Origin: Deltaproteobacteria bacterium
GTDB taxonomy: Bacteria > Myxococcota_A > UBA796 > GCA-2862545
DNA: 64,000 bases
NCBI GenBank assembly: GCA_007693595.1
Contig: REDI01000039.1
Location: 62,001 to 126,000 of the forward strand
Direction: 5' to 3'
The position numbers were made by a program, and so were the translations under genes. How positions within the stretch are numbered: position 1 is the stretch's first letter; each line of letters opens with the position of its first letter. Of the stretch, positions 34,444 to 36,905 are shown piece by piece. A model generated the notes under the pieces. The model searched no databases. It saw only the letters and a program-made list of their open reading frames with translations, and was not told the origin of the DNA.

Positions 34444-35658
34444 TCAGAACTCGGGAGAGTGCTCGGGAGCAGGCTCGACCAGGATGTACTTGAGCATCTC
34501 GTCGGTGGCTGCGACGGGAGCGCTCATGCCGTCAAAGCCGAGGTGTCTGAGCTTGCGTCGGACGTAGACCGAGGCCTCTTGCAAGGTGACTTTGCCGTCC
34601 CGAACGCCGTCGATCTCGCCGTCGGCCCAACCGCGGAGCGCGCCTAGGACCAAGAAGGTAAAGGCGCCGTGCCGTTGGGCCTGAAGGGGCATCGCGACCT
34701 CTCCTGGGCCGGTGCTCGACCACTCGATGATCGAGTTGGATCGTATCGAGGAGCTGGGGATGAGGAAGCGGGCCCCCTCGACCAGTGGAGCTCCATCGCG
34801 GCCGGTGCCGGTAAAGCAGGTGTCGAGGACGGCGATCGCCTTGGACGAGTTTCCTCGAGCTTGCCGGATGAGCCCTTCGACGGGTGTGCCTCGAGAGCCG
34901 AGCGAGACGGCGTCGGGGCGTAGGTCATCGCCCAAGAGGAGCCGCTCTCGGGTGACGGGGTGAGAGGCGCCGTGGCCCGCGAAGTAGAACCAGAGCGTTC
35001 CGCCGGACTTCGTACGCTCGGCGACCCGCTTGGCCGCCTCGCGCATGGCCTCGACGCTGCCCGAGGTGACGACCTCGATCCGGTGGTCGGGTACGCCTAT
35101 GGTGTAGCGGAGGTGGTCGGCGAAGGCTTGCGCGTCGCGCATCGCGAAGGGGACGTCGGTGGCGAAGGGGTAGCGCTCCAGCCCGATGACCAAGGCGGCG
35201 TCGAGGGAGCGCTCAGCGCCGGTACGAAGGGGCTCTTCGAGGGATGGTAGCGACGGTCCGTTGGTCGGGCCCGAGGTGTTCGGAGTCCGGGCGAACCAGT
35301 CTGGGATGTCCGGGCTGCCCTTGTCGCAGCCTGGATAGGCTGGATCGACATCGCAGAGCTGGCGTCGGGCGATCGGAGCCCAGTGGGAGTTGGAGGGTGC
35401 CCCGCTCAGGTAGCCTTCGAGGGCGGGGCGGGTGTTCTCACGGGCCGCAAGCTCGAACGCGCACCGATCAAGGAGCTGAGGAAGTTGGATGGTGTCGCGG
35501 GCGGAGTGCGGGCGACGGAAGGTTGCGCGGGCCAACTCGCAACCCCGGTCGATGGCCCCTGAGTCGAAGGCGCGTGCCGCACCGCCGACGGAACCGCTCC
35601 GAGCGCCGCCGCATGCCATCAGGAACAGGAGCGAGACGATCGCGAAGACGTTTCTCAT
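34444..35658 (-). CDS. Caspase-like (peptidase C14) lipoprotein
   Basis: Envelope-anchored cysteine peptidase of the caspase/metacaspase clan. MRNVFAIVSLLFLMAC16 is a typical lipoprotein signal with lipobox. Residues about 25-125 are a helical Cys-rich region. From about 150 a caspase p20-like domain begins: ALVIGLERYPFATDVPFAMRDAQAFADHL, catalytic His in WFYFAGHG (H229) and catalytic Cys in VLDTC281FTG, followed by a p10-like part (FTFLVLGALRGWADGEIDG). Both catalytic residues are intact, so it is probably active, likely cleaving after basic residues as orthocaspases do (inference). It is the second gene of an operon, overlapping the upstream gene by ATGA. A surface or periplasmic caspase-like lipoprotein is unusual. 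Confidence 0.86.
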   Translation of the reverse strand: MRNVFAIVSLLFLMACGGARSGSVGGAARAFDSGAIDRGCELARATFRRPHSARDTIQLPQLLDRCAFELAARENTRPALEGYLSGAPSNSHWAPIARRQLCDVDPAYPGCDKGSPDIPDWFARTPNTSGPTNGPSLPSLEEPLRTGAERSLDAALVIGLERYPFATDVPFAMRDAQAFADHLRYTIGVPDHRIEVVTSGSVEAMREAAKRVAERTKSGGTLWFYFAGHGASHPVTRERLLLGDDLRPDAVSLGSRGTPVEGLIRQARGNSSKAIAVLDTCFTGTGRDGAPLVEGARFLIPSSSIRSNSIIEWSSTGPGEVAMPLQAQRHGAFTFLVLGALRGWADGEIDGVRDGKVTLQEASVYVRRKLRHLGFDGMSAPVAATDEMLKYILVEPAPEHSPEF

Positions 35659-36905
35659 CGGATCCTCCGGGCGCGCATCCAGCCGCGCATGCCATCGGGA
35701 AGTTGAACCTCGACAAAGCCGTTATCTGTACGGATCCGCCGGACGTGAATACGCCCCGGAACGGTGAGAAGCACGGCGCTCTGGCCCGAGGGAGACTCGA
35801 ACACCGGATTACGGCGGTTTCGTCCGCCCTTGGTCCTGGCTGGGCTGCCCATGACCTCGGACTCGGCGGCCCGCGAGGCCCGTCGAATGAGCTGATCGAG
35901 CTCAGGTCGCACGACGGGCTTCACCGACAGACCGTAGGCCTGCTCCAGGATCTGGTGGTGACGCAGGGTGGTCTGGGCTCGCGCTGCGGCATCGGTGAAG
36001 GTGGAGTTGTTACCCAGGCGATCGGCGAGCTTGAAGACGACCTGGGCCTGTTCTGGGCGACCGTCGAGCTCGAGCGCCAACCCGAGGGTGTACATGACGC
36101 GGGGGTTGTAGGGGTCGACCTTCTTGACGTTGAGCAGCTTCGTGACGGCAGCGGTGGGGTTTCGGTCGACTTGCCGCATAATGGGTCGAACCACCCGGTC
36201 GAGCTCAATCTCATACTCGAACCGGCGCCAATGGGGCATGAAGTCGCGAACTAGAATGTCCGCGAAGCGCTCGAAGCGTCGGGACGAGATGGCTTCGGCA
36301 GGCGCGAGGCTCGAGATGCTCTGACGCTGCCAGGGGATGTCGCAGGCTGCCGGTTGGTCGGTCTGGGAGAGGCGACGGCTGAAGAGCAACGTGCCCTGGG
36401 CGTCGAAGACGCGCATGTCGGCCCCGACCTCGACTTCACGACGGATGCATGGGACGGTCACTTCTTTGGTGACGGTCTCGCCGTCATCTCCCTTGACGGA
36501 ACGGTTCACGGTACGCTCGTAGGGTACATCGGTCGAGCGTACGACCTGAGCCTGGATCTCGACGACCCCTTGGGCCTCGTTCCGCTCGGCGAGGCTTCGG
36601 ATCCGATCGGTGGTCAAGATGTTGCGTGAGCGGTGACGTTCCAGCTCCGCGATTCGGGTATCGATCCCGGGGGAAGCGTTGGGGATCCGGTTGTCGAAGC
36701 CCAGGTTGCGTCGTGTGCGGTCTCCGACGGAGTCTGCAACGGACAGAGAGGTTCCACCCCCGACATCGACGATGAGGACCTTCTTGAGTCCAGGGATGAC
36801 CGCCTCGGGCGCGACGGCCCGCTGGGCAGGTTCAGCGTTGGCGCTTGTGAAGGCGCCAATCATGATCAAAGTAGCGCAGAGAAGAGGGATGGTGCGACCT
36901 ATCAT
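35655..36905 (-). CDS. Secreted LpoB/CsgG-like, TPR and SH3-domain protein
   Basis: Signal peptide MIGRTIPLLCATLIMIGAFTSANA, then an alpha/beta region (KVLIVDVGGGT, RIAELERHRSRNILTTDRIRSLAERNEAQGVVEIQAQVV) whose spacing recalls the LpoB/CsgG fold. Next comes a TPR-like pair (VDPYNPRVMYTLGLALELDGRPEQAQVVFKLADRLG) and a C-terminal SH3b-like segment (LLTVPGRIHVRRIRTDNGFVEVQLPDGMRGWMRARRI). The domain calls are by pattern only. It is the first gene of the pair with the caspase-like lipoprotein, so it may be a partner, substrate or regulator. No similar gene pair is known to me. Confidence 0.65.
   Translation of the reverse strand: MIGRTIPLLCATLIMIGAFTSANAEPAQRAVAPEAVIPGLKKVLIVDVGGGTSLSVADSVGDRTRRNLGFDNRIPNASPGIDTRIAELERHRSRNILTTDRIRSLAERNEAQGVVEIQAQVVRSTDVPYERTVNRSVKGDDGETVTKEVTVPCIRREVEVGADMRVFDAQGTLLFSRRLSQTDQPAACDIPWQRQSISSLAPAEAISSRRFERFADILVRDFMPHWRRFEYEIELDRVVRPIMRQVDRNPTAAVTKLLNVKKVDPYNPRVMYTLGLALELDGRPEQAQVVFKLADRLGNNSTFTDAAARAQTTLRHHQILEQAYGLSVKPVVRPELDQLIRRASRAAESEVMGSPARTKGGRNRRNPVFESPSGQSAVLLTVPGRIHVRRIRTDNGFVEVQLPDGMRGWMRARRIR

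Follow-up and report, generated by a model that had tools for sequence, protein, structure and literature searches.

A predicted caspase-like lipoprotein and a secreted partner encoded by overlapping genes in an uncultured myxobacteria-like bacterium

What might a caspase homologue do at the envelope of a bacterium? Caspases are best known from cell death in animals and, to our knowledge, nearly all thinking about their bacterial homologues centres on the cytoplasm and on cell death. The question is raised by a 64-kb stretch of DNA (hereafter the window) from an uncultured, myxobacteria-like bacterium, in which the gene of a caspase-like protein with a lipoprotein signal (P0001) overlaps the gene of a secreted partner (P0002).

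A stand-alone unit of two overlapping genes

On the minus strand P0002 lies upstream and P0001 downstream (Table 1). Because the start codon of P0001 falls inside the stop codon of P0002 and its Shine-Dalgarno sequence within the last codons of the same gene, the two genes appear to be translationally coupled. A gene caller based on codon usage, with the housekeeping genes of the window as its training set, chose both frames, and the two open reading frames lie exactly where a first-pass annotation had placed them. P0002 and P0001 thus form a genuine two-gene unit, which stands alone between a divergent alpha/beta hydrolase gene upstream and a tRNA-Glu gene downstream. A sigma-70 promoter scan upstream of the unit returned no match, the scan being uninformative at the GC content found here. 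The scanned neighbours encode PurA, tRNAs, the alpha/beta hydrolase, a TonB receptor, a succinate dehydrogenase-type flavoprotein and a tyrosine recombinase. Among them we found no gasdermin-like or other defence family, as the first-pass annotation had already noted for gasdermins, and no toxin/immunity layout or secretion genes adjoin the unit.

Table 1. Features of the P0002-P0001 unit, in positions of the window
Feature	Position	Strand	Details
Shine-Dalgarno of P0002	36914..36917	(-)	GGAG
Partner gene P0002	35655..36905	(-)	416 aa; secreted, DUF6340-like (remote) with TPR and SH3
Sec signal peptide of P0002	36834..36905	(-)	residues 1-24, ANA cleavage motif; direct sequence
TPR region of P0002	35961..36167	(-)	about residues 247-315; family profile against designed TPR and MamA chains
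Basic linker of P0002	35805..35933	(-)	residues 325-367, between TPR and SH3; LIRRASRA and ARTKGGRNRRNP
Bacterial SH3-like domain of P0002	35664..35804	(-)	residues 368-414; SH3_3 E 0.018, sub-threshold
Shine-Dalgarno of P0001	35664..35668	(-)	GGAGG, within the last codons of P0002
Stop/start overlap	35655..35658	(-)	4 bases (ATGA)
Caspase-like lipoprotein gene P0001	34444..35658	(-)	404 aa; Pfam PF00656, 38.4 bits
Lipobox of P0001	35611..35622	(-)	L13-M14-A15-C16, Cys16 probably lipidated, Gly at +2; direct sequence
N-terminal helical region of P0001	35347..35559	(-)	residues 34-104, orphan; four helices predicted by model
Caspase (C14) domain of P0001	34534..35211	(-)	about residues 150-375; profile, alignment, model, Foldseek
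Catalytic His229 codon	34972..34974	(-)	in FAGHGA; kept in 39/39 active-type members
Catalytic Cys281 codon	34816..34818	(-)	in DTCFTG

The predicted lipoprotein and its partner

P0001 exceeds the curated cut-off of the Pfam Peptidase_C14 model (21.4 bits), the family to which the bacterial orthocaspases belong. Its His-Cys dyad is intact and lies within the caspase fold, and the numbering that the first-pass annotation had given for the two residues (H229 and C281) is correct. Since a PDB sequence search with P0001, as a single sequence and as a 17-member profile, gave no real match, we placed the fold by an AlphaFold model built with 16 homologues (mean pLDDT 80, rising to about 90 or above across most of the caspase core) and by Foldseek. 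The best PDB match of the model was MALT1 (TM 0.74 by target length), with metacaspases also among the top structural matches; the alignment spans the whole MALT1 caspase domain, and the strands and helices of the model run on to residue 394. Both observations bear on whether P0001 has a p20 part only and lacks p10, as the strict sense of orthocaspase would have it. On the Pfam match and this modelling we regard the caspase fold of P0001 as secure.

Two residues before Cys281 lies Asp279, which together with Asp175 makes up the signature of an acidic S1 pocket. Asp279 is invariant in the 67 family members that we compared; position 175 is occupied by Asp in 24 of the 39 active members (Asn in 15) and in 27 of the 28 dead ones. 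In TbMC2, the acidic S1 residues Asp95 and Asp211 accept a basic P1 residue (PMC6426788). D175 and D279 of P0001 match these acids by motif position, without structural superposition, and on that basis the protease is predicted to cleave after Arg or Lys. The closest solved folds, MALT1 and the type II metacaspases, share with P0001 the caspase fold over about 257 columns and the S1 acids of the Arg/Lys type, but they are only about 15% identical to it, eukaryotic and cytosolic, and carry other accessory domains.

Residues 11-16 of P0001 read LFLMAC, a lipobox cysteine placed after an n/h-region, so the lipoprotein signal that had been annotated on the caspase is present in the sequence; we made this call and those of the signal peptides by visual inspection and regular expression. 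A Met at position -2 of a lipobox is uncommon, and a Gly at +2 favours the outer membrane under the usual rule. The Gly at +2 makes outer-membrane anchoring of P0001 probable, and we infer that the protein is probably lipidated at Cys16 and held in that membrane facing the periplasm. For the helical region that follows (residues 34-104), the 59 other genomes of the order offered no convincing homologue (best E 0.013).

The export of P0001 bears on whether the unit could act from the membrane in phage defence or cell death, like caspase-gasdermin or EACC1 systems. Such systems are cytoplasmic and P0001 is exported; this and the lack of gasdermin-like or defence families among the scanned neighbours weigh more than a weak PADLOC caspase match (26 bits) and a sub-threshold match to NF047832, and we hold such a role to be very improbable. 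As an EACC1-associated caspase (NF047832) P0001 was rejected, with 59.4 bits against a cut-off of 140.

The partner P0002 starts with a Sec signal, in keeping with its earlier annotation as a secreted protein. Its profile aligned with DUF6340 (PF19867) at an hhalign probability of 98.6% (E 5.7e-16, 298 columns), and still at 95.2% (E 2.6e-8) when the TPR part was removed. Pfam's own PF19867 model gave no match over its cut-off in the source genome, P0002 included, so the protein is a remote relative rather than a curated member of this family. With the DUF6340 lipoproteins it shares remote full-length homology that includes the TPR end; it differs from them in having no lipobox, in adding an SH3-like domain and in carrying Cys153 and Cys188, which are invariant in its own family. 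A literature search on DUF6340 found no papers. The first-pass annotation had described the partner as an LpoB/CsgG-TPR-SH3-like protein; the TPR and SH3 parts stand, as seen through relatives only (one of which matched SH3_16 at 1.2e-5), and the LpoB/CsgG part does not. Neither a CsgG nor an LpoB match was found for P0002 in Pfam up to E=1, CsgG matched nowhere in the source genome, and an hhalign comparison with CsgG proteins from this order gave a probability of 2.7%, through the TPR only, with 0.2% for the N-terminal part. Judged by these profile comparisons, P0002 is a remote DUF6340-TPR-SH3 protein.

Between the TPR and SH3 parts, P0002 has a linker that contains the most basic 14-residue stretch of the protein and that carries insertions missing from its SH3-bearing relatives. 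In a single-sequence model of P0002, which is poor (pLDDT 43), the linker is of low confidence. Speculatively, this segment may be a candidate cleavage site. A stronger version would make P0002 the specific substrate of P0001, the cut in the Arg-rich linker freeing or inactivating the SH3 part as a periplasmic switch at the peptidoglycan. The basic residues set between folded parts (RR, R, K, R, RR), the absence of the linker from relatives without a neighbouring caspase and the acidic S1 residues of P0001 would all suit such a switch; however, basic stretches occur elsewhere in the sequences of the relatives too, and the specificity of the pocket is deduced by homology. We consider the specific-substrate version unlikely.

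Our preferred reading of the locus, to which we give a probability of about 0.4, is that of an outer-membrane-anchored periplasmic Arg/Lys protease made together with a TPR/SH3 adaptor whose linker is a possible substrate. Under this reading, P0002 and P0001 would be made together from the stand-alone, translationally coupled unit; P0001 would pass through Sec, receive its lipid at Cys16 and be held in the outer membrane facing the periplasm, where it would act as a clan CD protease of the orthocaspase/paracaspase type, cutting after Arg or Lys. P0002, as a soluble exported adaptor, would interact physically with P0001 and bring it to targets in the envelope, and its basic linker could, more speculatively, be cut by P0001 to free the SH3 part. 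The genomics renders each of these steps plausible.

Conservation of the pair within an exported caspase family

We then considered P0001 among its relatives. By Pfam, the source genome has only two C14 genes; a search with the P0001 sequence gave eight matches there, seven of which align with both catalytic residues, the eighth being short and weak. Relatives were present in 45 of 58 related genomes. Read with their flanks, at least 51 of 66 relatives begin with a Sec signal, and several of the remainder are start-site errors of a simple gene caller; the lipobox pattern matched none of these 66 other family members. These results indicated that export is the rule in the lineage and the predicted lipidation the peculiarity of P0001. 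The first-pass annotation had set the exported location against the usual cytoplasmic one of orthocaspases, but export is no surprise here: Sec signals are general in the family of this order, and a 2012 paper already described bacterial metacaspases with predicted export (PMC3501461). Those exported metacaspases and orthocaspases (PF00656) have in common with P0001 the C14 His/Cys dyad and an N-terminal export signal, and they are abundant in the former Deltaproteobacteria. P0001 departs from them in being, by prediction, lipidated rather than Sec-released, in its extra orphan helical N-terminal region and in the overlap of its gene with that of a DUF6340-like TPR/SH3 partner. P0001 is best explained as a lipidated copy, specific to its lineage, within a Sec-exported caspase family that has expanded in the order.

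An expanded family of exported caspases with variable neighbourhoods could also act outside the cell, killing or digesting neighbours or kin, and action of this sort has been suggested generally for exported bacterial metacaspases (PMC3501461). For P0001, however, the lipobox argues for retention by the cell, and neither a toxin/immunity layout nor secretion genes lie next to the unit. We judge extracellular action quite unlikely for this protein.

Several loci of active family members were observed alongside. In the source genome itself, at the neighbourhood C80 (L118:7126-12821), one or more active exported caspases stand together with two further exported proteins that match no Pfam family, a 'FLRxAFDTDPS' protein and one reminiscent of LPP20-type lipoproteins. 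This type of neighbourhood recurs in 7-9 genomes of several families (also L061, L063, L065 and L067) and makes a better case for a caspase-associated operon than the P0002-P0001 pair does. Another locus (L098, G046:C354:5000-24900) holds at least four active exported caspase genes in 20 kb, with serine/threonine-kinase-like genes nearby.

Full-length P0002 homologues were found in 8 of the 63 genomes of the order, and an active caspase adjoins only one of the eight, the copy in the window. From the other side, no P0002 or DUF6340 gene was found at the other caspase loci examined, and the only other genome of the same genus examined, a fragmented one, had no close relative of either protein. 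Elsewhere, P0002 homologues lie in many different gene contexts. The partner-side search was extended over 379 genomes of the phylum. A conserved P0002-caspase pair in several genera is ruled out within the order from both sides; the first-pass annotation had named conservation of the gene pair as the check on its reading, and the check came out essentially negative.

Two further loci bring a caspase-fold gene close to a gene of the partner's kind. In G042 (L114:5973-8659), a TAT-signal C14 protein (34.8 bits) that has neither the catalytic His nor the Cys is encoded directly upstream of a P0002-like gene. In G019 (L225:5225-8104), the genes of a DUF6340 lipoprotein, a 179-aa exported protein and an exported divergent caspase-fold protein follow one another on one strand, the only such case among 30 further loci with DUF6340 or P0002-profile matches. 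Both caspase-fold neighbours are divergent and catalytically dead. By our own estimate, fewer than 0.1 caspase-fold genes would be expected by chance within two genes, against two observed; the estimate takes a few caspases in every 5,000 genes and some 37 loci outside the window as its basis, and is post hoc and weak. Given this recurrence, which is weak and involves dead caspases, the two kinds of protein may still be functionally linked.

The main rival to the adaptor mechanism is that P0001 and P0002 share only a transcript, one being an interchangeable exported paralogue and the other a DUF6340-like protein with an unrelated function in the envelope. The absence of the pair elsewhere, the many contexts of P0002 homologues, the seven active exported caspases of the source genome and the variable neighbourhoods of active members all fit a mere shared transcript. 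The 4-base overlap, the Shine-Dalgarno sequence within the upstream gene, the export of both products and the caspase-fold genes near P0002 or DUF6340 genes in G042 and G019 speak against it. We regard a shared transcript as a serious possibility, held tentatively. With exported caspases normal in the lineage and the pairing unshared by relatives, the unit is a modest variant of the exported orthocaspases already known.

An exported pseudo-caspase clade

A more striking pattern than the pair in the window emerged from the tree of the 67 C14 domains (39 active-type and 28 dead members). Twenty-seven domains without Cys281 form one clade (bootstrap/SH-aLRT 98/95), with one member per genome; the Cys is replaced by Ser, Gly, Asp, Pro or Ala, the His is mostly kept and the S1 acids are retained. 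When six-frame matches are counted, 28 of the 43 genomes whose loci were read have a member without Cys281; among them is G031, where a second pseudo-caspase copy is placed separately. At the loci of the clade (L079-L110, e.g. L086:5099-6889, L093:5959-7752 and L101:5073-6860), the pseudo-caspase gene is syntenic with miaB (8 genomes) or with an FAD oxidoreductase gene (7 genomes), the second arrangement sometimes including a moaB-like gene. This synteny argues for vertical inheritance of the exported pseudo-caspase.

A survey of pseudo-orthocaspases placed 90% of them in Alphaproteobacteria and Cyanobacteria (PMC6426788); within the literature searched, the exported clade thus seems undescribed. 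A literature search on orthocaspases together with Myxococc- found no papers. Like the surveyed proteins, its members have lost the catalytic Cys and kept the S1 acids. They differ in being exported, in mostly keeping the His and in belonging to a group that is not among the main holders in the survey; P0001, for its part, is intact. The clade deserves study.

A broader scheme, which we think rather unlikely, would have the caspases of the order work as a network outside the cytoplasm. In it, several active Arg/Lys proteases that are exported would be accompanied, in most genomes outside the family of the source genome, by one vertically inherited exported pseudo-caspase with a basic-residue pocket, serving as competitor, inhibitor or scaffold; the operon in the window would supply the branch tethered to the membrane, its dedicated DUF6340-TPR-SH3 partner being cut within the basic linker.

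What stands out is a lineage in which caspases are overwhelmingly exported and expanded, one of them apparently lipidated, and in which most genomes hold a conserved inactive copy. If active, these proteins would be envelope proteases with a preference for Arg or Lys, and the group that makes them has relatives among bacteria with predatory habits and complex development. The pair in the window offers a self-contained case of two proteins, in which in vitro tests can address the protease, the possible adaptor and the possible site of cleavage.
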